NCBI GenBank assembly: GCA_947625975.1
Contig: CANQQL010000009.1
Location: forward strand, 1 to 40,647
Source of the DNA: an uncultured Bacilli bacterium
GTDB lineage: Bacteria; Bacillota_I; Bacilli_A; RFN20; CAG-826
Length of the DNA: 40,647 bases
Direction of reading: 5' to 3'
Positions within the stretch are counted from its first letter, which is position 1. Each line of letters starts with the position of its first letter. Below are positions 3,611 through 40,464 of this stretch, piece by piece. The notes beneath the pieces were generated by a model. The model worked only from the letters and a program-made list of their open reading frames with translations. It did no database searches and was not told the DNA's origin. Position numbers and translations under genes: made by a program.

Positions 3611-3627
3611 ATTTTTCCACCCATTTA

Positions 3628-3656: not shown

Positions 3657-3694
3657 TTTATATACGCTAGGATATCAGATAATTTTAAGGCAAA

Positions 3695-3723
3695 TAAAAA
3701 AGCCCTATTTTTTATTTAGGGCT
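3695..3723 (-). terminator. Terminator of the large glucan operon
   Basis: A perfect 7-bp stem AGCCCTA/TAGGGCT (3701-3707 with 3717-3723) is followed on the minus strand by six T residues. It lies 16 nt after the phosphorylase stop and is the first convincing terminator downstream of the promoter at 20116-20144. Confidence 0.85.
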
Positions 3724-3739
3724 TAAATATAATTTCGGA

Positions 3740-6700: not shown

Positions 6701-6790
6701 GGCAATCGCCGGAGTAAAGTTTGTGAATATTTTTTTCTTAGCAAAATTTTTAATTACAAAATAATTATTTTCAAATGAATAATCCGACAT
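3740..6790 (-). CDS. Inverting beta-glucan/oligoglucan phosphorylase, GH94/GH149/GH161 type
   Basis: This 1016-residue cytoplasmic protein has the plan of clan GH-Q phosphorylases: an N-terminal beta-sandwich (about 1-300) and an (alpha/alpha)6 barrel. HGEGNFRDVLQNRRND (387-402) and GKPGWNDALNGLPG (610-623) are landmark motifs; Asp616 of GWND is the expected general acid. Classical GH94 cellobiose phosphorylases have GDWND here, so the GWND form and the length point to a long-chain branch such as GH161 or GH149. These enzymes cleave beta-1,3 (or other beta) glucans with phosphate, giving glucose 1-phosphate. It is the last gene of the operon, and its AAGGAGGT ribosome site is embedded in the final codons of the LacI gene. 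Linkage specificity cannot be read from sequence alone; two GH16 genes nearby favour beta-1,3. Confidence 0.82.
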   Translation of the reverse strand: MSDYSFENNYFVIKNFAKKKIFTNFTPAIAGEKGKPLWLFYTNRGQCITSFGIRDKDSCMLEFSPAFIAYERVQYQGFRTFIKIGKKIFEPFKVGQTCQTKMFMNNEELIIEETNDKSKLHTEVHYFTMPEEKYPALIRDVRIKNLSKETRNLEIYDGLATLIPYGLSLGELKSTGNLFRAWMSVENLENNIPFYRLLSSTNDSSLVEDVKSSFFFKAYSSKGETTRIVDQNIIFAYDTSLSVAAGVEKNSFEKIRATEQITHNQLPCAFLGNKVELKPGEEVRLMEIFGWNEKGEIMSLDRNDFDFVDKKKKRNHEILEEIMSEISTETNNSLFNQYIKQCYLDNLLRGGLPIKKGEKIHYIYSRKHGDPERDYNWFIIKPEYYSHGEGNFRDVLQNRRNDLFFHPEIGDYNIRYFMSLVQFDGFNPLVVGGVNFTYVGEKETIAGIAKEKLKNFSLGDLYLLNENITDEEVDEILKNSQECYLAKTGEGYWCDHFIYLLDLLENFEKVLPDKIKEIWNNRNIATFNTPLVTRSYNNRYILTPRGVRRWDLIDDEKNKDLGLLGYLNEPWFKQNGEIYYTTLASKVFALIMVKAASLDPYGMGLDIDGGKPGWNDALNGLPGIFGSSVTDLIELYRLVNFAYEKQKLYGHGVILLKEQKDFLDGFIKAIKLKDVERYFALVALKENLREAMRNNPETKENFIPNEEILRDYELILKTLKNGLNKAIKYDDKHMVPTYFYYSVEKYEEIGKDNKYTYVLPKEFKVHTLPHFAEGIAKSFEVPLFNNKEQYKKYVATDGYDHKLKLFKTSESLVNETNQIGRIRTFASGWLERESCFLHMDYKFLLGMLKGGLYKEFFKQIKTNMPPFFAPERYGRSTIENCSFIATSNFKNKNLVGQGFQARLSGANAEFISMWYMLFVGTKSFNMQNNELCFTFNPLIEKDFFDENDEIKYRLLANTEVTLKNPLRLNGYEAKVKEIEVLLANGEILHVQGDTLKGNLALKLRNKEIKKLNATIG

Positions 6791-6794
6791 TTTG

Positions 6795-7814
6795 CTACCT
6801 CCTTCTTATATCATAAACTGACTTACCACGCACTATCGTACCAGGTATTAAAATTCTCTTCGTCTTGGCTGAGACATTTCGCATCGTTTCAAGCAATAAA
6901 TCGGATAAGGTCTCACCAATTTTTTCACTATCTTGCTTAGCGGTTGTAAGTAACGGATAAGTGTAATTTGCAATATCTGTTCCATCAAAACCGGTGACAG
7001 AAACATCTTCAGGGCAACGAAGACCCATTTCATTAATCACCTGAATTGCCGTTGCCGCATCATAATCATCAGGGCACATAATAACACTAGGTCGCACTTT
7101 CTTTAAGAGTATTTTTCTTACTACTTCTCGCATGCTTTCCGCATCTTTAAACTTAGATACGTAGTAATTGTCTTCACTCCAGGCAATATGGTGCTTTTTT
7201 AATGTTTCCAAGAAGGCTTTATATCGCACTTCACTCACATCGCTCGTATTGCTCCCCGAAACGTAGGCAATATTTCGATGCCCATTTTCCAGTATATATT
7301 CGGTCAATTCTTCCATTAGTTTAGCATTATCAGATGAAACCGAACTGACTGCTAAATCACCCAGATAGTCGAATGCAACACAAGGAACATCACTTGTCAT
7401 CATTTCAATCATTTCTTGTTGATTCATATCACCATAGAGTAAAACTCCCGCAATATTCCGGCTTTTGGCATTACGATAGAATGTTTCTTCTTTTCCTAAA
7501 ACATTACGTGATATAAATAAAATATCATATTTTTTTGTTTTCAGAGCATTTTGGAAGTGAGAAGAAATATTACCAAAAAATTCGTGATTTAAAGTAGAGA
7601 TATTCGTGTCGTAATAAGATAAAATGCCAATATTATGCGATTTGGCCTTCGAAAGGGTAATTGCTCCAACATTAGGAATATAATTTAATTCTTTAATGGC
7701 CTTCTTAACTTTTTCTTTGGTTTTCGGCGTTATTCCACTATAACCATTTAAAACTTTTGAAACAGTTGAAGGCGCGCATTTGCAATATTTTGCAATATCA
7801 TAGATTGTGACCAT
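6795..7814 (-). CDS. LacI-family transcriptional regulator
   Basis: This 339-residue protein has the helix-turn-helix VTIYDIAKYCKCAPSTVSKVLNG at its N-terminus, the hinge region at about 46-58, and a periplasmic-binding-protein-like effector domain to the end (for example CPDDYDAATAI, VTGFDGTDIANY). I chose ATG 7814, 2 nt after the GH30 stop, over an in-frame TTG at 7835, because family members begin a few residues before the TIYDIA motif. It is co-transcribed with the glucan importer and enzymes and is the natural candidate to bind the GAAANCGNTTTC palindromes at 23262, 36912 and 40535. Its inducer is probably a beta-gluco-oligosaccharide (inference). Confidence 0.93.
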   Translation of the reverse strand: MVTIYDIAKYCKCAPSTVSKVLNGYSGITPKTKEKVKKAIKELNYIPNVGAITLSKAKSHNIGILSYYDTNISTLNHEFFGNISSHFQNALKTKKYDILFISRNVLGKEETFYRNAKSRNIAGVLLYGDMNQQEMIEMMTSDVPCVAFDYLGDLAVSSVSSDNAKLMEELTEYILENGHRNIAYVSGSNTSDVSEVRYKAFLETLKKHHIAWSEDNYYVSKFKDAESMREVVRKILLKKVRPSVIMCPDDYDAATAIQVINEMGLRCPEDVSVTGFDGTDIANYTYPLLTTAKQDSEKIGETLSDLLLETMRNVSAKTKRILIPGTIVRGKSVYDIRRR

Positions 7815-7816
7815 TG

Positions 7817-9133
7817 TTACGCACCAAAAACGCAAGTTGTTATAGAATGTGATGGTAATTTAACTATATATTTTTTATTATCCAACTCTATAACTTCCGT
7901 GCACTCTTCCCTTTCATTTAAAATTATCGACACCACTTCTTGGTTGTCATTTAAAAAACTAACTATTAAAAAATCATTATTCTTAGATGTCGCAATTCTT
8001 TTTGCGTTTGGTTTAATAAAATGCGCAAAGTGCTTGACAATATAATAACTTGGGTTATAAATAAGTTCTTTTGTCTCATAGTTATATTGAATTAAGGCTT
8101 CGCAAAAATTGCCAACATGATTTGGTCCACCATGTGCATCGAGAAGCAAATTCCAATCAATGAATCCATTAGAAAAATTTAAACTGTCATTAATATAATT
8201 TTTCGCATAGCGGAAAGCATTATTAATTGTTCCCAATGCTGCGTCTGGATCATCGCGGTTTAAATTTAATAATTCAATACATCCTTCTGTAAATACTTTA
8301 ATAAGCTTGGGATATTTTTTATGCACTAATGAAATGTTATTCCAATCTCCGTTATCATACCAATGATAGGCAAAACCAGCGACTAAAGAAGAAAAATTTG
8401 GATTGGCTTTTTCATATTCTTCCATTTTTCTTACCAAAGCATCTCGATTATGATCCCATAAAGTAATTTCACAAGTAAGATTGTTTTCTTTAATTTTATG
8501 GTTTAGAACTTCCACAAATCTAATTTCTTCTTCTGAAGTATATCGGCATGATTCCCATGGTTGGGTCGCTTCTGGTTCATTTTGAGCAGAAATATAATTT
8601 ATATGAATACCACGTTTTTCTTGTTCCTTTAAGTATGTGCACAAGTACTGAGCATAATCTTCATAACAATCCGTTCTTAATTTCCCACCATGGGCTTTAT
8701 CGTTAGTGGTTTTAAATTGTAATGGAGGTGTCCAAGGAGCAGCAAATAAAGTTAAAGCATTATATTTCATCGCAGCTTTTACAAATGGTTCAATATTTTC
8801 AATATCATGTTTTAATGAAAAATCCGAGGAATCTCTCCTTAAAGCATAGTCATACGAGGAGCGTGAAAAATCACACGATCCAATAGTAAGTCTTCCCAGA
8901 TTATAGTTAAGACCTTTATCGGAAAATAAAGCCTCAAGCACTTCTTTTTTTTGTTCTATCCTTAAATCATTATAAATGCCACAGGCAGAATCAGTAAAAG
9001 CGCCACCAAAACCAAGAATTGTTTGATATTGTATACTTTTATCTATTTTTATGGTCGAAGAAATATTTTTTACTTCTTCTATAATTTCTTCGTTAAAATA
9101 ACTATTATAACTAGATGTCCACTTTTTCATCAT
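7817..9133 (-). CDS. GH30 beta-glycosidase, cytoplasmic
   Basis: This 438-residue protein shows the glycoside hydrolase family 30 pattern: GFGGAFTDSA (41-50), AAPWTPP (131-137), acid/base Glu186 in AQNEP, AYHWYDNGDW, and nucleophile Glu283 in FTEG. Family 30 covers glucosylceramidases, beta-1,6-glucanases, beta-glucosidases and beta-xylosidases. There is no signal peptide, so it should act on imported oligosaccharides; removal of beta-1,6-linked glucose branches from laminarin fragments would complement the phosphorylase (inference). Its start overlaps the end of the membrane protein gene by 23 nt, with AAAGGA upstream. Confidence 0.9.
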   Translation of the reverse strand: MMKKWTSSYNSYFNEEIIEEVKNISSTIKIDKSIQYQTILGFGGAFTDSACGIYNDLRIEQKKEVLEALFSDKGLNYNLGRLTIGSCDFSRSSYDYALRRDSSDFSLKHDIENIEPFVKAAMKYNALTLFAAPWTPPLQFKTTNDKAHGGKLRTDCYEDYAQYLCTYLKEQEKRGIHINYISAQNEPEATQPWESCRYTSEEEIRFVEVLNHKIKENNLTCEITLWDHNRDALVRKMEEYEKANPNFSSLVAGFAYHWYDNGDWNNISLVHKKYPKLIKVFTEGCIELLNLNRDDPDAALGTINNAFRYAKNYINDSLNFSNGFIDWNLLLDAHGGPNHVGNFCEALIQYNYETKELIYNPSYYIVKHFAHFIKPNAKRIATSKNNDFLIVSFLNDNQEVVSIILNEREECTEVIELDNKKYIVKLPSHSITTCVFGA

Positions 9134-9929
9134 TATTTAATCCTTTCAAATAATATTCTGGATATTGCTTTTTGTTAATATGTTGATCAAACAACGCTAA
9201 GGAATAGCAGATAAAGGTCAACTCTAACATACCAAGATAGATAAAGGCACTTAAAATTATTGCCACAATCTTAACAGCACTAATAGGTACGAACTCAAAG
9301 AGAATAAATGGTAAAAACAATAAAACAAATAAACCTAATGATTTTAAAATAGTGCCTACCAAAAATTTTACTCCATTTTTCAAAGATAGCATAAAACTAT
9401 TTTCATAAAATATCGTTTGTGTTTGCATAAAGAAGGCAACTAAAAGAACTAAGATGAAAACCACATATTCAAAAGCAATCAATAAAATTACGGAAATATC
9501 ACTCCAAGAAGTTGCCATAATCGAAGCACTTCCCAGATGAAGTAACATATATGTTATTCCAATAAACAGGTAAATTTTTATAAATTCTTTACCATTCTTT
9601 TTAATGCCTTTAAAGAAATCAAGGTGAACATTACAACCTTCATTCCATAAAAATTTTCGAAATACATAAAATCCACCTGCAAATCCCAATCCTCCAATAG
9701 TGAGTGTCAAAGCGACTCCCAAATATAAAACAAGTACATTCAAAATAGATGCGCCCTGAAATATTTCAAAGTTAAAGGCAAAGAGAATCCAAGCAAATAA
9801 AGGTATAAAGAAAAGAAAAGTATAAAGACTAACAGAAATAATTTCTGCAAAATGTTCTTTAATAATTTGTAACCATTGTTCTTTACGATTAAGTGGTTTT
9901 TCTCCATTTCCAAATTTTTCTTTATCCAT
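9111..9929 (-). CDS. Six-helix membrane protein, possibly DUF624/YesL-like
   Basis: The protein has 272 residues with about six hydrophobic segments (near 30-55, 65-90, 118-138, 143-167, 185-215, 215-245). A segment after helix 2 (FRKFLWNEGCNVHLDFFKGIKK) recalls the [Y/F]-x-x-RKW...FFKxFK loop of DUF624/YesL proteins, which sit in many sugar ABC importer operons of Firmicutes with no known function. The resemblance is weak and I am not sure of it. Its ATG lies in ATGGATAA, overlapping the previous stop by 8 nt, which implies translational coupling. Its position between the ABC ATPase and GH30 suggests an accessory role in uptake. Confidence 0.6.
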   Translation of the reverse strand: MDKEKFGNGEKPLNRKEQWLQIIKEHFAEIISVSLYTFLFFIPLFAWILFAFNFEIFQGASILNVLVLYLGVALTLTIGGLGFAGGFYVFRKFLWNEGCNVHLDFFKGIKKNGKEFIKIYLFIGITYMLLHLGSASIMATSWSDISVILLIAFEYVVFILVLLVAFFMQTQTIFYENSFMLSLKNGVKFLVGTILKSLGLFVLLFLPFILFEFVPISAVKIVAIILSAFIYLGMLELTFICYSLALFDQHINKKQYPEYYLKGLNNDEKVDI

Positions 9930-10563
9930 TACAATACCTACTCAATAAATAATTTAATAATTTATAGCCATTATCACTAGTGTTTGTCTCCTTTATACGA
10001 GAAAAATTTACACTATGTGCGCTACATAGCAAATAATAATTATAATTTCCATCAAAAGATATAAAATCGTTAAAATGATATTTTTCGTTATAGCTTTTAT
10101 TAGTATAATCGAAAACTTTTAAACCATAATTAACCTCATTTAATTGATAATATTCAAAATCTTCTATGGCACTGGAAGTCAGCGAATTTTGATCATAAGG
10201 AAGCCAATACTCCGGAATTATTTCTTCCATTGCTTTTAAATCTTCATCATTTAAAATCAAAAAATCAGCATCTCTTCCATAAGCTTGATATAACTGTGTC
10301 AGCATATTTTCATTTGCGGAATATGCATAAATATCGACATTTAATATTTCCGGAATATCTTTAAGAATATCTTCTTTTAAACTTTGATCGTTTAGATATC
10401 CTCCTGAAGAAAAAATTACAATTTTTTCATAATTTTTAAAAGCATTGATTTTATGAATGGTGAAATAAACAAGGACATAGGATAATAAGAGTGAGCAGAT
10501 AACAGGTGCCCAACGATATTCAAGAAAATGGTTAATAGTTTGTCTGGAAGTCTTAATTTTCAT
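9922..10563 (-). CDS. Single-pass membrane protein with extracellular binding-protein-like domain
   Basis: I do not recognise this gene. From ATG 10563 (AGGAAA upstream; an in-frame GTG at 10581 is possible) it encodes 213 residues: one transmembrane helix near 18-40, then an outside domain. The stretch KIVIFSSGGYLND...DADFLILNDEDL (about 45-110) reads like lobe 1 of extracellular solute-binding proteins, where a beta-strand with an acid or serine-glycine is followed by an ADF-x-I-L-x-x-DL segment, but it is far shorter than a full binding protein (about 400 residues). It may be a membrane-tethered accessory substrate-sensing domain. It overlaps both neighbouring genes and belongs to the glucan operon. 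Confidence 0.6.
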   Translation of the reverse strand: MKIKTSRQTINHFLEYRWAPVICSLLLSYVLVYFTIHKINAFKNYEKIVIFSSGGYLNDQSLKEDILKDIPEILNVDIYAYSANENMLTQLYQAYGRDADFLILNDEDLKAMEEIIPEYWLPYDQNSLTSSAIEDFEYYQLNEVNYGLKVFDYTNKSYNEKYHFNDFISFDGNYNYYLLCSAHSVNFSRIKETNTSDNGYKLLNYLLSRYCNG

Positions 10564-11035
10564 CTTTAATTTCCTCGACACCTAAAACATATCGTGAACA
10601 AATATTTAAAGTATATTGTTTGCCAACTTCTAAGACGAACGCTTCACTATCTTCGACCTTAACAATTAAATTACCTGCCTCACTCTTTGTTTGATATCTT
10701 TGAACGAAAAACCCATCCTCAAAAGATTTTGAAAGATGTTCGGCAATTAAACATGTCACTTCATGCGTCCCTTCTTTTTGTGCTTTAAAGATAACACTTA
10801 ACCATTTTCTTTCCGGATTTATAAAGGAAAATATGACAAACCACATCATCGTTATTAAAATCCAAATAAATACTGTACTGAATATTATATAAAATCCCTG
10901 TGTTTCGCGATTTTGAAATAATAACGTCAACACAATATCTAAGACTATTAATCCGCTTAAAATACCCACAATTATGTATTGTTTAGTTAATTGTTTTTTA
11001 ATAGCTTTTATTTCTTCATCAAAATCAATTTTCAT
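10553..11035 (-). CDS. Small membrane protein of unknown function (two transmembrane helices)
   Basis: This 160-residue protein has two N-terminal membrane helices (about 18-40 and 48-72), followed by a soluble domain of about 85 residues that is probably cytoplasmic (WLSVIFKAQKEGTHEVTC onward). The domain is rich in beta-type sequence and contains VEDSEAFVLEVGKQYTL. No family is recognised. There is no clear Shine-Dalgarno; its ATG is 4 nt after the ATPase stop, so coupling is likely. Together with the next two genes it forms a compact block of three membrane proteins between the ABC ATPase and GH30. Confidence 0.6.
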   Translation of the reverse strand: MKIDFDEEIKAIKKQLTKQYIIVGILSGLIVLDIVLTLLFQNRETQGFYIIFSTVFIWILITMMWFVIFSFINPERKWLSVIFKAQKEGTHEVTCLIAEHLSKSFEDGFFVQRYQTKSEAGNLIVKVEDSEAFVLEVGKQYTLNICSRYVLGVEEIKDEN

Positions 11036-11039
11036 AATT

Positions 11040-12464
11040 TTACAAAATATAGCGTGTAGTATTTATGTCAAATAAATGAATTTGATCAATATCAAATTGC
11101 AGGCCAATAATTGAGTGATTTTCAATTTCATTAAGCGCAGTTACTTTAGAAATAACTCTATTCTCACCTATCATTGTATGAATATAGTATTCTTGCCCTA
11201 ATAATTCAATATTAACAATTTCTGTTTCAAGCGTATCAGATAAAAGTGTGGCATTATTTAATAAACCATATTTATGAATATTTTCTGGTCTGATACCCAT
11301 TTTTATTTTGTGCTTTTTAGTTTCTAAAATTGCTTTTATCTCTTCGATTTCGGCATTATATTTAACAATTTCATTTTGCCAATAATTTCGATCAGATTCA
11401 ACTTTTAAAGTTTCCGACTTAACTTTAGCATCTTCAATCATCTTCGTTAATTCTGCAATGCGATTATTATAGAAGGCATCATGCGCTTTTTTGGCAGATG
11501 TCGGTAATTTAATTACAAATCCGTTTGGTAAAATTATTTTGCCATTATTATAAGTTGAATCAATGATATTCATTGATGGCGAACCAATAAAAGTCGCAAC
11601 AAATAAGTTACTTGGATGATTGTAAACTTCACGCGGTGTTCCGATTTGTTGAATTACGCCTTTACTCATAACTACAATCCTACTAGCCATTGTCATAGCC
11701 TCGGTTTGATCATGAGTGACATAAATCGTTGTGGAACCAAGTGACTCATGTAAATTAACAATTTCACTACGCATTTGCACACGCAATTTTGCATCAAGAT
11801 TACTTAATGGTTCATCCATTAAGAAAACTTTTGTATCACGAACAATGGCTCTACCTAAAGCAACACGTTGACATTGTCCACCGGATAAAGCACGTGGTTT
11901 GCGATCTAAATATTCTTCAAGTTGCAAAATTTTAGCAACTCTTTTAACTCTTTCATCGATTTCTTCTTTTGGCACTTTACGCATTTTTAAGCCAAATGCC
12001 ATATTTGCGTAAACTGACATATGTGGATAAAGAGCGTAGTTTTGGAAAACCATAGAAACATTACGATCTTTCGGCTCTAAATCATTAGAATAAACTCCAT
12101 CAATATATAAATCACCTGATGTAATTGATTCTAGACCCGCAATCATACGAAGCGTTGTAGATTTTCCACAGCCGGAAGGTCCAACAAATACGATAAACTC
12201 ATGTTCTTTAATTTCTAAATTAAAATCAAAGACAGCTTGAACACGATTTCCATATATTTTATTAATGTGTTGCAAAGAGATAAAAGAATCTTTCGGGGCA
12301 ACTTTTGCTAACTTCCGATTTTCTTTTTGAAAGGCAATTGTTTTACGATAAATTTCTTCCCGTTCCCTTTGTAAACGATCTTCTTCTCTTTCGTGCGCTT
12401 TTTCTTGTTCTCTTCTTAATTTCTTTTGTTCTTTTAGTTTAAGTTTTTCTTCTTTTGAAGCCAT
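11040..12464 (-). CDS. Sugar ABC transporter ATPase (MsmX/UgpC-like) with two coiled-coil additions
   Basis: This 474-residue ATPase has Walker [10 protein letters not shown] (95-103), signature LSGGQCQR (193-200), Walker B VFLMDEP (213-219) and H-loop His251, followed by a C-terminal OB-type regulatory domain (MGIRPENI near 389). It should energise the importer formed with the permeases at 16772-18639. Family members usually have about 370 residues. The extra length is a highly charged N-terminal extension (1-55, Lys/Glu/Arg-rich, probably helical) and a helical insertion of about 60 residues in the regulatory domain (324-385). Its own ribosome site TAGGAGGT is strong. As in other CUT1 systems, the ATPase might also serve several importers. 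Confidence 0.93.
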
Positions 12465-12474
12465 AACTTACCTC

Positions 12475-13878
12475 CTACTTTTGATACCATTTAACGTAAT
12501 CGACTTTCATTCTTGCCGGAATATCTTCAGCATCCGGCATACGATAGCCATCAAAGTTACCACCAATAGCCATATTAATTAAAATGTGGAAGTTTTTATC
12601 AAATGGTGCAGCATTAGAAAATTTGCTTGTACCATCTCTTACCGACCATTCAGTTGCTTTAATGGTTCCGTATAATTTACCATCGGTAAAGAAACGAATT
12701 TCGCTTTCATCCCATTCAACGGCGTATGTGTGGAAATCGACAATTGTGCCATTATCAAAAAACATACTTGCATTTTTATATAAATGTTCTCCATCTGTAC
12801 CAGAAAAATGTAACGTTCCGAACATTTGATATTTTTGACGGCCACGAACCTCCATAATGTCAATTTCTCCACTATTAGGCCATCCGCCATATTCGTTTTT
12901 ATCATTAAATTCTGGTAACATCCAGAAAGCTGGCCAAATTCCATTACCAGTTGGACAAGAAATCTTTGCTTCAATACGACCATAGGTATGAGCAACTTTA
13001 CCTTTTGAACGAATTCTACCAGATGTATATCTCAGATTACGTAAATTTTCTGAATGGTATTCTTCATTTTTAGCCGAAATTATTAAATTACCTTCGACAA
13101 CCTTCAAATTATCTTCAGCATAATATTGTTCTTCTTCATTCCCCCAACGAGAAACACCATAAGCACTACCATCGCCAATCATAACTTCCCAGTTGTTTTT
13201 GTTTAATCTTTCCGATGAAAAATCATCTTTAAAGATTAATTTGTAGCCATTTACTTCTTCAATGCTATTATCAGTCTCCTCACCATTATCTTTAGGAGAA
13301 AGCGTAACTTCACATTCCGCAAAAGCATCAGGATTAATTTTTGAGAACGCTGTTACAACTATTTTTCTTTCTAGTCCTATTTGATGAACGGTAACATTTC
13401 CGTTGCTATCAACACTAGCTAAAGCTTCGTTATTAACTTGCCAACCAATACCGGAATTTGTGGTGTCACCAGTAATAGAAGCGGAAAACTTTTTGGTTTC
13501 TCCAACCTTCATACTTGCAAACTTATTCGTAATTTCAACGACTATTAATGTATTCTTTTTAACTTCAATAGGCACTTCCTGGTATAAGTCCGGATCTGCA
13601 ACACTGGTTGCTTTAGCTAATACATATCCTTTCCTTAAAGCAGATAATTTTCCATCTTCGGTAATAGTTGCAATTAATTCGTCGTCAACCGACCAAACTA
13701 TACCTTTCTCTTTCGTATTTTCCATCGTTGCTAAAAGTTGAATTTCTTTTCCGCATTCAACGCTAGTTGGACAATTAGAATCAATAATTAATTCAGGATC
13801 CTTATCTTCGACACCGCAGCCACTCATAATTGATAATGTAAGTATACTAATTATTATTTTTTTTAATTTGTTCTTCAT
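12475..13878 (-). CDS. GH16 endo-beta-glucanase lipoprotein with two Ig-like domains
   Basis: This 467-residue protein begins with a lipoprotein signal (IMSGC, Cys21). Two Big_2-type Ig-like domains (about 30-107 and 110-195) precede a GH16 catalytic domain (about 212-467) with GEIDIME, whose Glu338, Asp340 and Glu343 are nucleophile, helper and acid/base. RWGNEEEQYY and HTYGRIEAKISCP are typical of laminarinases and lichenases, so it should cut internal beta-1,3 or mixed beta-1,3/1,4 bonds at the cell surface. It lies between the beta-helix lipoprotein and the ATPase gene in the importer operon. A second GH16 lipoprotein is at 38430-39416. Confidence 0.92.
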   Translation of the reverse strand: MKNKLKKIIISILTLSIMSGCGVEDKDPELIIDSNCPTSVECGKEIQLLATMENTKEKGIVWSVDDELIATITEDGKLSALRKGYVLAKATSVADPDLYQEVPIEVKKNTLIVVEITNKFASMKVGETKKFSASITGDTTNSGIGWQVNNEALASVDSNGNVTVHQIGLERKIVVTAFSKINPDAFAECEVTLSPKDNGEETDNSIEEVNGYKLIFKDDFSSERLNKNNWEVMIGDGSAYGVSRWGNEEEQYYAEDNLKVVEGNLIISAKNEEYHSENLRNLRYTSGRIRSKGKVAHTYGRIEAKISCPTGNGIWPAFWMLPEFNDKNEYGGWPNSGEIDIMEVRGRQKYQMFGTLHFSGTDGEHLYKNASMFFDNGTIVDFHTYAVEWDESEIRFFTDGKLYGTIKATEWSVRDGTSKFSNAAPFDKNFHILINMAIGGNFDGYRMPDAEDIPARMKVDYVKWYQK

Positions 13879-13892
13879 ATTACCTTACCTGC

Positions 13893-15326
13893 TTATCTTA
13901 CAAAGTATGAATAATATGCACTTAACGATGGAATTTCGCCATCATAAATATTCCAGGCATCAGTAGGAAAATCACTATACAAAGAAGCATCTTTTAATTC
14001 TTCCATTGTTTTCATTGCGCAATTTCTAATTGAGCCTGTATCTGGGCCATCGGCAATTTTATTCAAATATACATGGGTTTGACCAAAATAGGCTGGGGCA
14101 GAAAAATGTGCAGTTTTTATTGCAAAATTGGCTGCGTAACAATCCATAACAGCACCATAGCTGATACCAACACCGCCATAAACGCCATTTGTTTCAACAC
14201 CATTAGAGTCTTTCTTATCAGAACCTTTTGTTCCTCCATAGAATGTCCATCTCATCAATTCATCTTGGCTTACAGAATCTATATCAAAATCCGGATTATT
14301 CTTATTTTCTTCAATGAGTCTCTCTTTGTTGCCTTCAATGTATTCTTCTCCATAACCTACGAATTGATCGGCAATCGAACATTTAGCTAAGGAAATAACA
14401 TTTCTAATGCATTGATTTGTATCATCAGCGTCGTTTAAGCCACAGATGCCACCAACATTACAGGACTCATCATAGAAATGAGTAGAAATTTCTGCTGTAC
14501 AGTTTTCATCGATAAAACAATTTTCGATTAATCCCGAGTTTTGTCCGGCAATAACTCCGGCAATAGTTCTGCCAAAGATATGAACATTTTTAAAAGCGGT
14601 ATTACGCACAATTCCACTTGGTCCAATTAGTTGGAACACTCCAAACATATTGCCCATTTTATGGCTCTCATTTTCAAATAAATATATATCAGTTTTACGC
14701 GATGTTTCTTCGCTTGTCATATTGTTAGAATATCGCGATGTCAAATTTTTTATAGCATAGCCATTTCCATCAAAAACACCTAAAAATTCTTTGTTAATAG
14801 TGCTTGATGTTGCAGATGTCGCAAAACCTAATGGTTCAAAATTTGAAATTGAACTGCAATCAATATCATTTGCTAAAATATAGGAACCACTTGGATTCTT
14901 GTTAATATCTTGTAAATCTTGTGCATTCTTAATTACTTTATCAACAAACAAAATGTTAATTTCTTGAATTTTTGTTGTACCTTTACATTTAATTTTAGCG
15001 ACACGATCGCCGGAGTTAACTTGAAAATCTCCCTTGTCATTATATAAGGCTTTTGTATCAATTGATAAGATTCCATCTATATATCTAATTTGTTTATCTT
15101 TAATGCGCACGCGAGTACCAATATTTATATATTCGATATCAGTATTTGGTAAATCAACTTTGATGTTGAGATGGTCGGGAACATTGTTTAAATCAACATA
15201 AGCGGTTTTATTAAAGACAATTGCCCCAGAGCCTTCTTTCAAATCATTATTACATGCTGTTAAAGCAAACAAACTTGAGAAAAGAATAGATGAAACGCTT
15301 AATATTTTTTTTACACGTTTATGCAT
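13893..15326 (-). CDS. Surface lipoprotein with GLUG-like beta-helix domain
   Basis: This 477-residue lipoprotein (LTAC, Cys25) has an N-terminal beta-rich region (about 30-125) and then a repeat-rich right-handed beta-helix-like domain. The entry to that domain has YILANDID (149-156) and FLGVFDGNGYAIKN (181-194), followed by turns such as GVIAGQNSGLIENC and VGGICG, the pattern of GLUG-type surface repeats. No catalytic residues can be assigned. The C-terminus AWNIYDGEIPSL matches those of the lipoproteins at 15344-16744 and 23363-25657. It is probably a glycan-binding or adhesion protein of the importer operon; function is not known. Confidence 0.72.
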   Translation of the reverse strand: MHKRVKKILSVSSILFSSLFALTACNNDLKEGSGAIVFNKTAYVDLNNVPDHLNIKVDLPNTDIEYINIGTRVRIKDKQIRYIDGILSIDTKALYNDKGDFQVNSGDRVAKIKCKGTTKIQEINILFVDKVIKNAQDLQDINKNPSGSYILANDIDCSSISNFEPLGFATSATSSTINKEFLGVFDGNGYAIKNLTSRYSNNMTSEETSRKTDIYLFENESHKMGNMFGVFQLIGPSGIVRNTAFKNVHIFGRTIAGVIAGQNSGLIENCFIDENCTAEISTHFYDESCNVGGICGLNDADDTNQCIRNVISLAKCSIADQFVGYGEEYIEGNKERLIEENKNNPDFDIDSVSQDELMRWTFYGGTKGSDKKDSNGVETNGVYGGVGISYGAVMDCYAANFAIKTAHFSAPAYFGQTHVYLNKIADGPDTGSIRNCAMKTMEELKDASLYSDFPTDAWNIYDGEIPSLSAYYSYFVR

Positions 15327-15343
15327 TTATTACTTCTCCTTTA

Positions 15344-16744
15344 TTAGTCAAGTACTTTCAATGTTGGCATTTGATTATCGACTAAATTCCAAGCGTGCTC
15401 GTTTAAATCATAGAAATCAGCACTTGTAGCCTCAAACGAAATTCCTGGATTATATCCCTCAAAATCAGTGATAGCAGTGCCCCAATCCCAAGTTTGTCCA
15501 CCAATGAAATCCGTTGAAGTATTTGTATATAGATTTTTAGTAATTTTTGAATCATTATTTGGATAAGCATAATCTGCATAAATTGAACCTCTACCCGCAT
15601 TGTCTTCAATATTTACAACAGTATCATAAATATTTCCGGCACCAGAGCCAAATATTGCAGAGTTAAACCCAAACCAATTGTTTGCATCAATGTTTAATCC
15701 GTTATCATAAGAATGATTAACATTAATTAAGCAGTTATCAACGATACAGCCTGAAACACCAACGCCGATAAATGGTGTAGAACCCCACCCTGAGCCTTTT
15801 TCGTCTACTTCACATTCAAGTGTTAAGTTTCTGACTGCCGCTCCTTTATCCAATTTATGGATTAATGCTGCATTATTATATGCTTTTCCTTCTTGTGTAC
15901 CTTCAACCTTGTAATTCTTTATTGTATGACCTCGGCCATCAAATTTCCCTTTAAAAGTAGTCGTTGCTTCATCTTTTTTACCGGATTCGACATACATACC
16001 TTCCATATCAATATCCGCTGATAAATAGTAGTTCTTACTTTGATCACTTACACCATATACAAAATCAAGTAATTGAGCCTTGGTAGAAATTTCTACCCAA
16101 GTTGAAGTAATATCACTTTCTACATAAATTTTAAATTCAGCTTGTTTACGATATTCACCGATACTGGCATTTAAAACGATTGTTTCAGATCCTTCTTGTA
16201 AAGGACGGAAAGTGACTGATTGAGTATTATTTTTGCCTACAAAACTACCTTTACCATTTTTGATAGTCCATTCATAAATAATCTCATCACCTTTTGGATT
16301 AGTGACTTCAGCATTGAATACGACTGTTCCAGATCCAAATTTTATGGTGTCTGAAGCTGTAGTGATTTTTAAAGTAGGTTTACTGGAAGCAGTAACTGTA
16401 ACTTTGTGTTCTGCTTTTGCTGTGGCATCTTCACGAGATGTAACAGTAATTGTAACTTCTCCTATACTTAAACCTCTTACATTTCCCTCATTATCAACAG
16501 TAGCAACGGCATCATTGGAAGAGGTAACTGTATAACCTTTTCTGTTATTGTCATTTTCTAAAGTAATATCAAGTTTTATTTGAGAATCAACTTCAACTGT
16601 ACTAGGACCGGCGATATTGACCTTAATATTCGTCTTGGTTACGGACGTATTATCACTGCCATTATTTTCACCACAAGATGTCAACGTCATTGCGCCAGTT
16701 AGCATAAATATTGCACCGGCAAGTAAAACTAAAGATTTTTTCAT
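15344..16744 (-). CDS. Surface lipoprotein with Ig-like domains and beta-helix C-terminus
   Basis: This 466-residue lipoprotein (LTSC, Cys24) has a Big_2-type domain (about 38-118, with AVATVDNEGNVRGLSIGEVTITVTS-like sequence), a second Ig/PKD-like domain (about 122-210) and a beta-helix-like domain from about 215. The latter has YYLSADID (239-246), FKGKFDGRGHTIKN (264-277) and the C-terminal HAWNLVDNQMPTL (450-462), all shared with two other lipoproteins in the window. It follows the second permease by 27 nt with AAAGGAG upstream. A role in binding glucan next to the ABC importer is likely but inferred. Confidence 0.72.
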   Translation of the reverse strand: MKKSLVLLAGAIFMLTGAMTLTSCGENNGSDNTSVTKTNIKVNIAGPSTVEVDSQIKLDITLENDNNRKGYTVTSSNDAVATVDNEGNVRGLSIGEVTITVTSREDATAKAEHKVTVTASSKPTLKITTASDTIKFGSGTVVFNAEVTNPKGDEIIYEWTIKNGKGSFVGKNNTQSVTFRPLQEGSETIVLNASIGEYRKQAEFKIYVESDITSTWVEISTKAQLLDFVYGVSDQSKNYYLSADIDMEGMYVESGKKDEATTTFKGKFDGRGHTIKNYKVEGTQEGKAYNNAALIHKLDKGAAVRNLTLECEVDEKGSGWGSTPFIGVGVSGCIVDNCLINVNHSYDNGLNIDANNWFGFNSAIFGSGAGNIYDTVVNIEDNAGRGSIYADYAYPNNDSKITKNLYTNTSTDFIGGQTWDWGTAITDFEGYNPGISFEATSADFYDLNEHAWNLVDNQMPTLKVLD

Positions 16745-16771
16745 AATTTTTTCTCCTTTTTATTTTTATTT

Positions 16772-17713
16772 TTAACCTTTTAATCCACCAACTGAGGTGT
16801 TTTCCATAATAGTTTTTGAAAATATACTAAATACTATAACAATAGGTATAATCGTCAATGTAATAGCGGCAAATAAAATAGTCTTTGAATCAAGAGAACT
16901 TTTTGCCATTAAATCAAGGCCAACTGCGATTGTAGGACGACTTGGCAAGAAAATTTTTGGCGTCATGTAATCATTCCATAGACCAATTAAGGTAATAACC
17001 GAAATAGCAACAATTGGTCCTCTAGCCATTGGAAGGCTGATTGAAAAGAAGATTCTGAAGTCGCTAGCGCCATCAATTTTCGCCGCTTCAATATAAGTCC
17101 AAGACAAATTCTTAAAAAACGAATAGAGAAGCATAAAGTTCATTCCAAAGCCCCCGCTATATAAGAAGATCATACCCAGAATCGTATCATTCAAATGTAA
17201 TACTTCTTTCATCAATTGAATTTGTGAAGGCAAAGATCCGACTATCGGAATAATCATTGTAAAGATAACAATACCGAAAATCAGATTTCGTCCGGGGAAT
17301 TCATATTTTGCCACAACATATGCAGCACAACTAGATACAAATACGGTAACTAATGTACCTGAGAACGCCAAAATTACCGACATTCCCAACATTTGTGAAA
17401 TTGTTTTATGATTAGTTTCCGAACTGGAAAATTTCCAAGCTGTGATAAAGTTTTCTAATGTCCATTCTTTTGGTATAGAGATGAAATCCTTAGAATATTC
17501 AGATGCTGTTTTGAAAGAGTTAATTGCCACCCACACAAAGGGGAATATATAACTTACCATAAATATAAAGCAAATTATGAACATCACAACAAATAGAACT
17601 TTCTCGCCACCATGTCTTTTATATAAAACATTATTTTTACGTTCATAATCAACTTGACGAGCTTCATCACGCTTTTTACGGAAGAATTTCTTAATGGAAG
17701 TTGAGATACTCAT
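16772..17713 (-). CDS. Carbohydrate ABC transporter permease, MalG/CUT1 type
   Basis: This 313-residue inner-membrane protein has six hydrophobic segments and the EAA loop IEAAKIDGASDFRIFFSISLP (about 220-240), which contacts the ATPase. The C-terminal tail MENTSVGGLKG is typical of the second CUT1 permease. Its ATG overlaps the stop of the first permease (TAATG), so the two subunits are translationally coupled. It forms the channel with its neighbour, working with the binding protein at 18646-20076 and the ATPase at 11040-12464. The likely cargo is beta-gluco-oligosaccharide, judged from the operon. Confidence 0.93.
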   Translation of the reverse strand: MSISTSIKKFFRKKRDEARQVDYERKNNVLYKRHGGEKVLFVVMFIICFIFMVSYIFPFVWVAINSFKTASEYSKDFISIPKEWTLENFITAWKFSSSETNHKTISQMLGMSVILAFSGTLVTVFVSSCAAYVVAKYEFPGRNLIFGIVIFTMIIPIVGSLPSQIQLMKEVLHLNDTILGMIFLYSGGFGMNFMLLYSFFKNLSWTYIEAAKIDGASDFRIFFSISLPMARGPIVAISVITLIGLWNDYMTPKIFLPSRPTIAVGLDLMAKSSLDSKTILFAAITLTIIPIVIVFSIFSKTIMENTSVGGLKG

Positions 17714-18639
17714 TAGAAATTCACCTCCTTAAAGAAATGATTTAATAATGCTCGAACTCCTAAAACAATTGGTGTAGCTATAAGCGTACAAACTAAGCCC
17801 ATTGTCGCCGGGTTATTTAAAGCCGAACCTTGGGAATCATTGAATATTTGTAAGCCTATAGTTTTTGTAGAATCAATCGTTCCGGTTAATAACATTGGTT
17901 GCAAATATGTTCCAAATACACCCATCATACCAAAGATGAACAAAGTAGTAATCGTTGGCCATGTTAATGGAATAATAATATGGAAGAATTCTTTTATAGG
18001 AGAAACTCCATCCATTTTTGCTGACTCAAGTAAGTCATTAGGAATTCTTGCCATACCTGCTGTAAGAAGCATAACGTCATAACCAATGCCAGTCCAGAAA
18101 CAGAATATCCAGACCATCCATTTTTCAATTCCCGTGCCTTGAACAAAAAAGTTCGCAGTGTTTATTCCAAATTTTGCAAATAACGGATAAAGAAGACCAC
18201 CGGTATTAAACATTGAAGAATAAACAAGAGTTAAAATAACAGTTGGTAAGACACTTGGAAGATAATAGACAACCTTAAACACTCCACCCATATAAATCTT
18301 TTTAAAAATAAAATAAGCAAAGAATAAGGAAACTGGTAAAGTAATAAAGCAATTTAAGACTAAATAAACCAAGCTGTTTAAATACATTTGTTTGGTTGCC
18401 GGAATGCTCATCTTTTCAAATACATTAACGTAATTTTTAAAGAGACTATCAATCGGTAACCATTCCAGGTATCTATCCTTAAAGGTTAAGAGAATGGAAT
18501 TTATATTAACTCCGAACCACATTATTGCAAATTGCAAGCAAGGATATAACAGCATTAAGATAATAAATATCGTTGTAGGTTTAATAAATCTACGTCTCGC
18601 TTTATTCTCCCTTTTATTATTAACTACTGCTGTTGACAT
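17713..18639 (-). CDS. Carbohydrate ABC transporter permease, MalF/CUT1 type
   Basis: This 308-residue protein has six membrane helices and the EAA motif LLESAKMDGVSPIKEFFHIIIP (about 200-222). The N-terminus is positively charged (NNKRENKARRRFIKP) before the first helix, as in the first permease of CUT1 importers. Its ribosome site GAGGTTG is inside the last codons of the binding-protein gene. It overlaps the next permease by 1 nt. There is no extra periplasmic domain. Confidence 0.93.
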   Translation of the reverse strand: MSTAVVNNKRENKARRRFIKPTTIFIILMLLYPCLQFAIMWFGVNINSILLTFKDRYLEWLPIDSLFKNYVNVFEKMSIPATKQMYLNSLVYLVLNCFITLPVSLFFAYFIFKKIYMGGVFKVVYYLPSVLPTVILTLVYSSMFNTGGLLYPLFAKFGINTANFFVQGTGIEKWMVWIFCFWTGIGYDVMLLTAGMARIPNDLLESAKMDGVSPIKEFFHIIIPLTWPTITTLFIFGMMGVFGTYLQPMLLTGTIDSTKTIGLQIFNDSQGSALNNPATMGLVCTLIATPIVLGVRALLNHFFKEVNF

Positions 18640-18645
18640 AAAATA

Positions 18646-20076
18646 TTATTCAACCTCAGCGTTTAAGCAATAACCTCTCCAGTTATCTCTTGCATAATTA
18701 TAAACTTTTTCAAAGACTAAATCAGGAGTGTTTTCGCTTGGATTTGCCATACATGATTTGTAGTAACGATTATTACCAATCCAAGGTTGAATATCAATAT
18801 CGCTATTGCCGGTAATAATTGGTGAGTTACTGGAAAGTGTAAAGTTCTTAGTTTCGGTTAAAATTTTATACATACTATCAACATAAGAATCTTTGGCACA
18901 TAAATCAGACATATCGATATCACTATAATCGAAAGCGAGGAATGGTCCTTGAGCTTTTTCCACAAATGTTCTGCAGGCCAATTTAGAAGCCATGAATTTT
19001 AAGAAATCTTTTGCAATTTCGATATTTGGTGAATTTTTTGCAACAATCATCGAATCGCCAAATCCAACCATGAAATTGTAGTAGTCACTTGTTGCATTAA
19101 CACGAGGTGTCTTCATCATGCGCACTTCAAAATTAAACTCTTTATTACCTTGTGATTTCTTTATTTCATGTTTTGCCCATTGTCCATAAGGAATCATTGC
19201 TGCTTGTCCACTATAGAACAAATATTGAGCACTATCTAATGTTGCACCTTGTGCATTCTCATTACTATATTCAGGATGTGTACCAACTAAATCATACCAC
19301 ATCTTGTAAGCTTGCTTGAAATTTTTGAATTTGCCATCAGGATCAAAATTATCAAAGCCATTTGCATAAGTTCCATCTTTGCCTTTTAATTCCGACCATG
19401 TTTTAAGATTATCTAAGCCATCTAATTCGGCCCACCATTCATAAAGGGGATAATCCCAGTAGTAATCTCTGGTGTCACCACCACCTGCCCAAGCAAATGG
19501 AATTATATTCGCTTCAGCAATTTCAGCACATAAACTAGTAAGTTCTGCATAAGTAGTAGGAACTTCCCAACCATGTTCTTTAAACAAATCGGCATTATAG
19601 ACAAATCCTCCTGCGCCTTGAGTTAAACACACCTTATAATAATGTGCTTCGCCATCTTTATCGCTTTTAAAATATGAAAGTTGTGCTGCATTTGGTAAAA
19701 CACGATCCATAAACTTATCTCCATCGATTGTTTCACCATTATAAACATCATCTAAGTTTGCCAACAATCCACGATTTGCATAGCTTTGCCAGTTTAAGTC
19801 ATGTGATATGAAAATGTCATACTCACTATTCTTAGACGTAAGTTGCGCTTCAACTTTTGATGCGATAGTAGAATCGGCAACATAATCAACCATGTTTCCA
19901 GATTCTGCTGCATAAGCATCAGCAATCTCTTTTACCCATTCATCGCCATAACCACCGTTATAGAACATAATGGATAAAACTCCTGGCTCTCTATCATCCT
20001 CGCCACAGGCCGCCAATGCACCAGAAAGAACCATCAATCCGATTATTGGCAAAATCTTTTTTGCATTCTTTTTCAT
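18646..20076 (-). CDS. Sugar ABC transporter substrate-binding lipoprotein
   Basis: From ATG 20076 the product is 476 residues with a lipoprotein signal (ALAAC, Cys24). The mature part is a family 1 solute-binding protein: LSIMFYNGGYGDEWVKEIADAY-like start, EVPTTYAELTSLCAEI, the aromatic patch DYYWDYPLYEWW and the hinge-side FYSGQAAMIPYGQW. An in-frame ATG at 20103 would place nine polar residues before the signal, and lies only about 6 nt after the predicted transcription start; GAGGAGGG sits just before 20076, so that start is preferred. It is the first gene of the 13-gene operon and sets its substrate, most likely a beta-gluco-oligosaccharide (inference). Confidence 0.93.
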   Translation of the reverse strand: MKKNAKKILPIIGLMVLSGALAACGEDDREPGVLSIMFYNGGYGDEWVKEIADAYAAESGNMVDYVADSTIASKVEAQLTSKNSEYDIFISHDLNWQSYANRGLLANLDDVYNGETIDGDKFMDRVLPNAAQLSYFKSDKDGEAHYYKVCLTQGAGGFVYNADLFKEHGWEVPTTYAELTSLCAEIAEANIIPFAWAGGGDTRDYYWDYPLYEWWAELDGLDNLKTWSELKGKDGTYANGFDNFDPDGKFKNFKQAYKMWYDLVGTHPEYSNENAQGATLDSAQYLFYSGQAAMIPYGQWAKHEIKKSQGNKEFNFEVRMMKTPRVNATSDYYNFMVGFGDSMIVAKNSPNIEIAKDFLKFMASKLACRTFVEKAQGPFLAFDYSDIDMSDLCAKDSYVDSMYKILTETKNFTLSSNSPIITGNSDIDIQPWIGNNRYYKSCMANPSENTPDLVFEKVYNYARDNWRGYCLNAEVE

Positions 20077-20115
20077 CTTGTTTCCCTCCTCTTGGAAACC
20101 CATTTCTTTAATATT

Positions 20116-23211: not shown

Positions 23212-23261
23212 AATTTTTCCTCTCTTTAAAATAATTAATTTACAAAACACAAAAAACTTTA

Positions 23262-34248: not shown

Positions 34249-34258
34249 AATTTATTGA

Positions 34259-37316: not shown

Positions 37317-38417
37317 TTATATACTTTCAATAAAAATACTCTTTATAGCCTCAAGATCTTCGCTTGCTACCCCTATACTTATTAAATAATTCGCTATTCT
37401 TTCAGAAAGCGTATTTCCTTCTGTTCTTTTAATGGTCGCAACATAATTATTTTTAATATTGTTCATGGTTCGTGCTCCACCGATATTACCAAAGTTAGAA
37501 AATAAATAATCACGGAACAAATATTCATCTTCCACACCAAGTAAACCGTTTAATAAATATGCAATCATTCCAGTACGATCCGTGCCAATATTACAATGAA
37601 AAATTAAGGGATAACTATTCTCGTCAGCTAATATATCGGAAAAGATATGTTGTACCATTTCTTTATTTCCTTCCAGTATGTTACTTGCATGCCAATCCAT
37701 CGGACAACTAAAATAAGTAACTGAATCTCCTAAGACACTCGAAGTAATAGCACCAACTTCATTATCGTCTATTGTTCTTAAATCCATCTCTGATTTAATT
37801 TTTAAGTCTTCAAGCAATACCTTTTCTCCCTCACTTGTGACTTCTTTTATGATAGTACTTGCATTGCTTTGATTTAAGCGTCCACTGCGAAAAAACAAAC
37901 CTTGTCTTACACGATGTGTATCATCGATTGGCCATCCACCAACATCACGAGCATTGGTAATACCATCAATATATAAATTTCTTGGTCCAAAACTTTCAAT
38001 TTTAAAAGATTCTGTATCGCTTATTTCCGCAGTTGAGGATTCATAACTTGCTTCTACATTCCAATAATAAGTCGTGGCAATTTTTAAATTATATATTGAA
38101 GCTTTATTTTCTTTAGTCTCAATTTCTATCGCATCCGTAAAATCTTTAGTTTCACTGATTTTTACTTTAAAACCTGTTATATCTTTTTTTCTTGTTTTCC
38201 AAGATAATTCTATTGGTTTAGGTCGACTTAGTTCTTCCACACCAAAAGCATATTTTGTTGCCGCTTCGTAATTATCATTCAAATATTCATCTTGCAAGTC
38301 AGTATGAATTCTCACATCATCCTTATACTTGGATAGTTCAATTGCCTTGTTAGAACAAGATATTAAAACACCTGTTATTAACGCCAAAGAAATATAATTA
38401 AATTTTCTTATTTTCAT
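37317..38417 (-). CDS. Secreted tyrosine-phosphatase-like lipoprotein (Y_phosphatase3 type)
   Basis: This 366-residue lipoprotein (LISC, Cys21) has a fibronectin III-like domain (about 64-142, with PIELSWKTRKKDITGFKVKIS-like sequence and ATTYYWNV) and a C-terminal phosphatase domain (about 145-366). The P-loop is HCNIGTDRTG, with Cys275 and Arg281, and NARDVGG (155-161) is the second family motif. It would dephosphorylate proteins or sugars outside the cell. Family members are usually cytoplasmic or secreted without such an Ig-like domain. It ends the GH16 unit, 12 nt from the GH16 gene. The presence of a CotH kinase nearby is suggestive. Confidence 0.85.
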   Translation of the reverse strand: MKIRKFNYISLALITGVLISCSNKAIELSKYKDDVRIHTDLQDEYLNDNYEAATKYAFGVEELSRPKPIELSWKTRKKDITGFKVKISETKDFTDAIEIETKENKASIYNLKIATTYYWNVEASYESSTAEISDTESFKIESFGPRNLYIDGITNARDVGGWPIDDTHRVRQGLFFRSGRLNQSNASTIIKEVTSEGEKVLLEDLKIKSEMDLRTIDDNEVGAITSSVLGDSVTYFSCPMDWHASNILEGNKEMVQHIFSDILADENSYPLIFHCNIGTDRTGMIAYLLNGLLGVEDEYLFRDYLFSNFGNIGGARTMNNIKNNYVATIKRTEGNTLSERIANYLISIGVASEDLEAIKSIFIESI

Positions 38418-38429
38418 AGAACTTCTCCA

Positions 38430-39416
38430 TTATTCTTTCAATTGATAAACTCTTACATAATCAACAAGCATATCTGCCGAAGAAAATGAATCCTCCGGTT
38501 GCACATAACCAACATAATTTCCCCCAACCGCAAGATTAAATAAAATATAAAAATCCACATCAAATGGCGCACTGGGGTTATCTTTTGCCTTATCAGAATA
38601 ATAAATATCATTAGTAATTTTATAAACTACTTCTCCATCAATATAGTAGGCAAGATATTCACTTGTCCATTCTAAACCATACATATGAAATTGATCTATC
38701 GTTCCTTGTTCCGGAATTTTACTAGATTTTGATGTGCATTGATTATTTGGCCAATTTCCTCCATAGTGTATCGCATTACCAATCGTGTATTTATCCATAC
38801 CTTTTCCGTTTGCTTCCATTATATCGATTTCACCGGACGAAGCCCATCCACCATAAATGTCCTCATTATCAGGTAAGAGCCAAAATGCCGGCCACATTGC
38901 TCTTTGTGTTGGCAGTAAAATACATGCCTCAAAATAACCATACGTATAAAAAACATTATGTTTGGTTTGAATTCTTCCTGAAGTGTAGTTTTTTCCATTT
39001 TTATTTTCGCGTTTTGCGGTAATTTTTAATAATCCATTTTCTACACTTACATTTTCTTCTTGATAATACTCCAATTCATCGTTTCCCCAACCAGATAAGC
39101 CATACTGAGAACCAGTTCCATATTCAATATTCCAAACATCTTTGTTAAGAGAATCACCCGTAAACTCATCCTCAAATTTTAAAACATAATTTTGATTAAT
39201 ATATGTAGGTGGCGGATTTGTTATCGCAGAATTTTCTTCGCTTACGCCATTACTTGGTAGGCTTGGTTTACTGGTAAAACTTACACTACTTATAGATTCA
39301 GAAATAGTTGGTGATGTTAAATTTGATGTACTATTTTCAAAATAAATATTACAACTTGTTAGTATTAAAAGAATTGCACTAACTAAAAGCAATTTATTTT
39401 TATTATTTTTAAACAT
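38430..39416 (-). CDS. GH16 endo-beta-glucanase lipoprotein
   Basis: From ATG 39416 the product is 328 residues (a TTG at 39455 would add 13 residues before the signal). It has lipoprotein Cys22 in LTSC, a Ser/Thr-rich linker (27-66) and a GH16 domain (about 75-328) with SGEIDIMEANG: Glu196, Asp198 and Glu201 are catalytic. WGNDELEYYQ and FYTYGYFEACILLP match laminarinase or lichenase type enzymes, as in the other GH16 at 12475-13878, but without Ig-like domains. It is expected to act on beta-1,3 or mixed-linkage glucan at the surface. It starts 31 nt after the neighbouring lipoprotein gene. Confidence 0.92.
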   Translation of the reverse strand: MFKNNKNKLLLVSAILLILTSCNIYFENSTSNLTSPTISESISSVSFTSKPSLPSNGVSEENSAITNPPPTYINQNYVLKFEDEFTGDSLNKDVWNIEYGTGSQYGLSGWGNDELEYYQEENVSVENGLLKITAKRENKNGKNYTSGRIQTKHNVFYTYGYFEACILLPTQRAMWPAFWLLPDNEDIYGGWASSGEIDIMEANGKGMDKYTIGNAIHYGGNWPNNQCTSKSSKIPEQGTIDQFHMYGLEWTSEYLAYYIDGEVVYKITNDIYYSDKAKDNPSAPFDVDFYILFNLAVGGNYVGYVQPEDSFSSADMLVDYVRVYQLKE

Positions 39417-39447
39417 ACAATCATCGCCTTTATCCAAAATTCTGTCT

Positions 39448-40464
39448 TTAAGCAACTAAATTATTTCCTAAGAATGAAACACTGCCAGTATAGTATGTAG
39501 TGGCATTTTCAATTCTAATTGTAAATGTAATTGCATCAGTTTCTGTAATTCCTTTGTCTAGAACTATATAAATTCTAAATCTCGTCTCATTAGGGTCAGA
39601 TGGATAGTAATCAGAAACGATAAAATTATCATTATCGATTTCGACTTTCGTAATTTGTAAATCGGACCAATTTGTGCCATCAAAGCCTACCGAATCAGAC
39701 TTAATCCAGATCCAAACTCCAGCACCATCAATACGGTTTACTTCATTATCTACTCCGGTAGTGTAAAGTTCAAAATTTCCTCCATCGATCTTTTCAACGC
39801 TTGGAGCATCTTTCCAATTTTTACCGATAAACTCAACAGTGTTATCATAAAATTTTCCATCCGGTGCAGAAATTTTTACATAAAAAGTCAGTTCATCTTT
39901 AAATGTAGGTGCACCACTTAATGCCAGATAGACACGGACTGGATTATGTTTTCCTTCGTATAAATCTATTTGCTGACTAATAATTGTTAAAGCACCTTTT
40001 TTTACTTCAACTTCCACACTAAAATCCTGAATGACATTTACTCCTTCTTTATAGCCAATAGAATCTGCTTCAACCCAAATCCATACACCGGCACCTTCTA
40101 TATGAATACTTTCAGTTCCAGTATCTGCCGATTTTAAAATAAATTGTCCCCCATAATTGGGATTATCCGGTTCTTCCTGATCAGTCGGTGTACTTGGTTT
40201 TTCAACAGAAGTACTGGTATCCTCAACAGGTGTACTCGGCGTATTTACCGATGGAGTAGAAATATCTTCTGATGGTAATTCGACTGATGTCGAGCCCACC
40301 GATAAGTCCTCACTTACACTTGGAGAAACAGGTGTACTCACCACAGATTGAGAAATACTTGGTGATAAAGATTCACTAGCTGAATCAGAATTATCAGAAC
40401 AGCTAACCATAAGTGCTAGAATACAAGGGACAGCCCATAAAATTTTGACATGATTTTTTTTCAT
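39448..40464 (-). CDS. Lipoprotein with two tandem copies of an unassigned domain, probably carbohydrate-binding
   Basis: This 338-residue lipoprotein (VSC, Cys22) has a long Ser/Thr/Pro/Glu-rich linker (27-100), then two related domains of about 110 residues: 105-216 and 228-335. Each begins GG-x-F-x-L, contains GAGVWIW (124-130 and 247-253) followed by a D-S-[I/V]-G stretch, then R-x-Y-[L/I] and ends F-[I/L]-G-[K/N]-N. The aromatic GAGVWIW could form a binding platform. I do not recognise the family. It is the first gene of a unit with GH16, so it may be a glucan-binding surface protein. AAAGGA lies upstream of the ATG. Confidence 0.72.
   Translation of the reverse strand: MKKNHVKILWAVPCILALMVSCSDNSDSASESLSPSISQSVVSTPVSPSVSEDLSVGSTSVELPSEDISTPSVNTPSTPVEDTSTSVEKPSTPTDQEEPDNPNYGGQFILKSADTGTESIHIEGAGVWIWVEADSIGYKEGVNVIQDFSVEVEVKKGALTIISQQIDLYEGKHNPVRVYLALSGAPTFKDELTFYVKISAPDGKFYDNTVEFIGKNWKDAPSVEKIDGGNFELYTTGVDNEVNRIDGAGVWIWIKSDSVGFDGTNWSDLQITKVEIDNDNFIVSDYYPSDPNETRFRIYIVLDKGITETDAITFTIRIENATTYYTGSVSFLGNNLVA

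Follow-up and report, generated by a model that had tools for sequence, protein, structure and literature searches.

A predicted surface lipoprotein of uncultured Bacilli with a putative new Ig-like domain for binding beta-1,3-glucan

In the beta-1,3-glucan loci of Bacteroides, the protein SGBP-B is a non-catalytic surface lipoprotein of poorly conserved sequence, encoded beside a GH16 laminarinase and having SusC/SusD as partners at the Gram-negative outer membrane (PMC7157763). Gram-positive bacteria carry gene clusters for GH161, a family of beta-1,3-glucan phosphorylases whose substrates are oligosaccharides. Such clusters also encode ABC transporters and GH30 or GH3 enzymes, and a GH16 laminarinase is likewise known from them, the cluster of Acholeplasma laidlawii including one (PMC6484121). 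The protein considered here is encoded by an uncultured rumen bacterium of the Bacilli on a DNA stretch of 40,647 nucleotides, referred to as the window, and is predicted, with moderate confidence, to be a surface lipoprotein that binds beta-1,3-glucan by means of a new Ig-like domain.

Profile and sequence searches locate a complete beta-1,3-glucan catabolic locus at 3740..20103 of the window, separate from the unit that encodes this lipoprotein and about 17-19 kb away from it, with both on the reverse strand. The locus encodes a GH161 enzyme (3740-6790), a LacI protein (6795-7835), a GH30 enzyme (7817-9133), an MsmK-like ATPase (11040-12464), a GH16 enzyme (12475-13878), a conserved protein of 477 aa with no Pfam match (13893-15326), two permeases (16772-18639), and a sugar-binding protein (18646-20103), all on the reverse strand. 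The GH161 enzyme matches its relative in another locus, L054, at 3.6e-182, and that relative matches a solved GH161 at 8.8e-193. The 477-aa protein recurs beside GH161 in L014, L017, L018, and L054, and is a second unassigned candidate of those loci. The gene of the sugar-binding protein is adjoined by two neighboring paralogues on the same strand (20228-21490 and 21553-23250; phmmer E about 1e-121), both of which contain an F5/8 type C galactose-binding-like domain. Elsewhere on the reverse strand (28873-35311), genes for a MoxR ATPase, a DUF58-like protein, and two membrane proteins of the von Willebrand A type follow one another, as read by eye.

The gene of interest (39448..40464, reverse strand) has an ATG start and encodes a predicted surface lipoprotein of 338 aa with two copies of the domain. 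Directly next to it on the same strand lies a GH16 gene (38430..39455; PF00722, 4.9e-18; probable ATG start near 39416), in agreement with the initial annotation, which had seen here the first gene of a GH16 unit. The GH16 product is a laminarinase-like lipoprotein with a lipoprotein-type signal of its own, and in the PDB it comes closest to laminarinases (LamCAT 6jh5, 9.4e-46). The third gene of the unit (37317..38417, reverse strand) encodes a predicted surface lipoprotein with an fn3-like region and a tyrosine-phosphatase-like Y_phosphatase3 domain (PF13350, 7e-28); an extracellular phosphatase-like lipoprotein is unexpected within a glucan unit. The order of domain gene and GH16 gene is kept in L013, which belongs to a congeneric genome (G005). 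There the domain protein holds three domain copies and the third gene, in the matching place, is a likely counterpart, encoding a lipoprotein whose N-terminus is closely similar to that of the window product.

The N-terminus of the 338-aa protein, MKKNHVKILWAVPCILALMVSC, is compatible with a lipoprotein signal when compared by eye with the lipobox rule: residues 1-22 (40399..40464) would form the signal peptide and lipobox, reading LALMVSC at its end, which fits the lipid anchor proposed earlier. A linker rich in Ser, Thr, Pro, and Glu follows (residues 24-103; 40156..40395), and nearly all of the folded part of the protein is then made up of domain copy 1 (residues 104-217; 39814..40155) and copy 2 (residues 227-335; 39460..39786), all encoded on the reverse strand. 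These boundaries, taken from HMM coordinates, lie within about a residue of those first given (105-216 and 228-335). The copies share 33% identity across 114 alignment columns (BLASTP E 3e-15), and their alignment score of 141 compares with a mean of 28 (standard deviation 5.1) for 5000 shuffles, the highest of which scored 62. The motif GAGVWIW is the same in both (residues 124-130, 40075..40095, and residues 247-253, 39706..39726; reverse strand, by motif search of the translation), and the other motifs listed at the outset, GG-x-F-x-L, D-S-[I/V]-G, and F-[I/L]-G-[K/N]-N, are likewise found in each copy.

The claim that the domain is unassigned holds by sequence for Pfam, NCBIfam, PHROGs, and the PDB. 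The whole protein matches no Pfam or NCBIfam family and has no convincing PDB sequence match, and neither copy has a convincing match in Pfam, NCBIfam, or the PDB by sequence. A wider set of 24 domain copies gave only stray weak matches in Pfam, NCBIfam, and PHROGs and no PDB sequence match; among them, no Big family was matched at E 0.1 or better, CBM_4_9 of Pfam was not matched, and a stray match to Peptidase_C25_C (0.028) appeared in one copy. Profile search of the window's own genome found no copies beyond the two, a plasmid collection gave no match, and in the literature, of which coverage was incomplete, no description of the domain was found.

Structure prediction, one of the checks called for by the initial annotation, gave confident models. 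AlphaFold2 folds the single copies into discrete, non-catalytic, all-beta sandwiches that resemble Ig-like domains, with a pLDDT of 91.2 for copy 1 and 96.4 for copy 2. Foldseek found no neighbor under E 1e-3 (best 4.5e-3, 2mw1), and the matches from VIA-align, with Z between 6 and 8.5, were Ig-like domains, unrelated ones among them; these values may reflect only a common arrangement. The best of these is the Ig domain of the S-layer protein SbsB (4aq1; Z 8.5, 2.5 A, 82 residues); neither search brought a known CBM family to prominence or any specific neighbor, although a relation to such a family may still exist. Such a generic fold, with an S-layer Ig domain as its nearest structural match, suits the main rival explanation, according to which the domain is a ligand-free structural spacer or tip of surface proteins and owes its recurrence in glycan loci solely to the many large surface lipoproteins that such loci encode.

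The conservation pattern is less easily accommodated by a spacer, since two strands keep an aromatic and charged face opposite a hydrophobic one. Across 21 divergent copies (less than 70% identical), positions 26, 28, 30, 72, 74, 76, and 78 are always hydrophobic, with position 28 sometimes Thr, while charged or aromatic residues are kept at positions 20 (H/R/K), 22 (E/D), 27 (W/F/H), 29 (W/Y/F), and 31 (D/N/K/E) and, in the later strand, at 73 (R) and 75 (Y). This alternation fits strands with one face in the core and a conserved face that would point outward. Many glycan-binding domains contain strands of this two-faced kind.

A profile built from 11 domain copies (A2) was used for the genome searches. 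By this profile, 15 of the order's 279 genomes and 14 of the family's 224 have the domain, and so do G304 and G493, which belong to another family of the class; the best domain match in profile searches had an E of 1e-45. Among 149 genomes sampled from the phylum there was no further member, and a search of the genome contigs with the whole protein sequence found no relative where the profile did. A match in G431 (L063; E 2.5e-4) was left out of the counts for its partial profile coverage. Weak matches on contig 1 of G000 and in G099 were dropped, as they did not extend beyond the signal and linker (query 1-94, 2-70, and 6-94). In G108, the domain of L055 (contig 4, 61749-62129) has one in-frame stop; the closely similar L057 of G183 reads through the domain without a stop.

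Most named relatives come from rumen metagenome-assembled genomes. They mostly carry an N-terminal signal and range from about 370 to nearly 3000 aa, and several also hold Big_2 or other bacterial Ig-like repeats (Pfam), company that would be expected of a spacer. Among the largest are two surface proteins with the domain at the extreme C-terminus, of 2815 aa in L060 (9566-18013) and 2964 aa in L061 (9804-18698), the former with many Ig-like repeats in Pfam. The presence of the domain in these multi-Ig giants also favors a structural role, and no glucanase was recognized near either gene. However, in most relatives the domain, single or double, sits at or near the C-terminal tip, far from the N-terminal anchor, rather than in the stalk, and in the window protein it forms nearly the whole folded part.

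The association with glucanase genes argues further against a mere spacer. GH16 is encoded in 15/15 domain-bearing genomes of the order vs 60/264 others (Fisher 9e-10), GH161 in 10/15 vs 29/264 (1.7e-6), and GH81 in 3/15 vs 13/264 (0.046), with genus-level values of 1.7e-4 for GH16 and 1.3e-4 for GH161; because the genomes are related, these Fisher values overstate independence and are to be taken as indications. The domain is not essential to glucan use, since it is absent from most genomes of the order with GH16 or GH161 (the 60 and 29 counted above). At closer range, 6 of the 15 genomes (G000, G005, G170, G185, G197, and G262) have a GH16 gene no more than 10 kb from the domain gene, against a chance expectation of about 0.5 in 15 (rough p 8e-6). 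In both G120 and G216 a gene for GH81, an endo-beta-1,3-glucanase family, is about 2 kb from the domain gene, and G170 has the two in one locus. L014 and L054 share a slot for the domain protein in the order SBP-permease-permease-[domain]-conserved protein-GH161-GH16, in L017 and L018 the domain protein comes just ahead of LacI-SBP-permeases-GH161, and GH30 is adjacent in L018 and L019. The domain protein is thus encoded in or beside a glycan utilization locus in the window and in several relatives. In G069, G153, G108, and G183, no glucanase is close, and the neighbors are sugar transporters or unrecognized. The spacer explanation is less likely than a glucan binder, and it keeps its share of probability because of the generic fold and the two giant multi-Ig relatives away from recognized glucanases.

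Under the preferred reading, that of a glucan binder, the favored ligand carries beta-1,3-linkages, because the enzymes that share its loci, namely GH161, GH81, and laminarinase-like GH16, agree on it. This narrows the four substrates first suggested (laminarin, lichenan, cellulose, and starch), the genomic context favoring beta-1,3-glucan. Another glycan, such as mixed-linkage glucan, cellulose, an alpha-glucan, or a host glycan, is a distinctly improbable ligand given that those enzymes all point to beta-1,3-linkages, even though GH16 enzymes of subfamily 3 often cut mixed-linkage glucan too (PMC7157763), one relative (L053) has a SusF_SusE-like stretch, and others (L015 and L016) adjoin other sugar transporters. 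The match of the L053 protein (2902-6066) to SusF_SusE is at 2.1e-8, and a GH3 gene lies downstream of it.

The domain is probably an undescribed glucan-gripping module, and a working model can be outlined. The N-terminal cysteine would be lipidated and tether the protein to the membrane's outer face, from which the low-complexity linker would let the two Ig-like beta-sandwich domains extend outward. Each would grip a glucan chain by its conserved aromatic and charged face, formed by the W/F and W/Y of GAGxWxW, the preceding H/R/K-x-E/D, the following D/N, and the R-x-Y of the later strand, and the tandem copies may provide higher avidity. The neighboring lipoprotein GH16 laminarinase would then cut the captured glucan, and the oligosaccharides would be imported by the ABC transporter and phosphorolysed inside the cell by GH161, with GH30 assisting (locus 3740-20103). 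The label of dedicated surface glycan binder given in the initial annotation therefore finds support in the genome context (GH16 in every domain-bearing genome of the order, and several loci with GH16, GH81, GH161, GH30, or ABC transporters), but the binding itself is something we infer.

Pfam recognized no glycoside hydrolase domain in the same polypeptide in the window protein or in ten domain-bearing relatives. The domain has its own discrete fold, as a new carbohydrate-binding module should, but it falls outside the strict CAZy definition of a CBM, since no copy is fused to a recognized catalytic domain and its binding is deduced; the name is lowered accordingly and the functional reading is unchanged. 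Recurrence near rather than inside glucanases, together with the tandem arrangement, could also be expected of a protein-binding module that collects glucanases or components of the transporter at the cell surface. This is very unlikely, as the window glucanase has its own lipoprotein signal and needs no scaffold, and no partner motif is known.

If the binding is true, this would be an undescribed glucan-binding domain, and it would help to account for the ability of small uncultured rumen Bacilli to compete, with ABC transporters only, for beta-1,3-glucan, be it of fungal or algal origin or plant callose. Its profile would also allow annotators to mark beta-1,3-glucan loci whose binding proteins are now called 'hypothetical'.

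Among known domains, the Ig domain of SbsB (4aq1) and Big_2 may share the overall fold, as far as VIA-align shows; the window domain differs from Big_2 and similar families in having no convincing Pfam Ig-like match and in its conserved GAGxWxW and RxY. The jelly-roll of CBM4 and CBM9 is a separate domain: a stretch of the slot protein in L018 matches CBM_4_9 weakly (1.8e-4, below the cut-off), and the domain proteins of L014 and L054 have stretches related to it. In L014 and L054 these suspected CBM4-like stretches have no CBM_4_9 match in Pfam, so that the link to CBM4 rests on the one weak match in L018. At the level of the locus, the window's GH161 locus belongs with the Gram-positive GH161 clusters, sharing GH161, ABC permeases, and GH30/GH3; the available part of their description contains no binding lipoprotein with a domain of the window type (PMC6484121). 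The closest functional counterpart is SGBP-B, which the window protein would resemble as a non-catalytic surface lipoprotein of poorly conserved sequence, encoded beside a GH16 laminarinase. The two are likened by function and not by sequence, and they differ in their partners: no SusC/SusD was found among the locus proteins scanned, and these loci carry ABC transporters instead. It is tentatively proposed that a new family of beta-1,3-glucan-binding modules with an Ig-like fold begins with this domain, one that occurs largely in uncultured Bacilli of gut and rumen and could serve ABC-transporter loci as SGBP-B proteins serve SusC/SusD loci.
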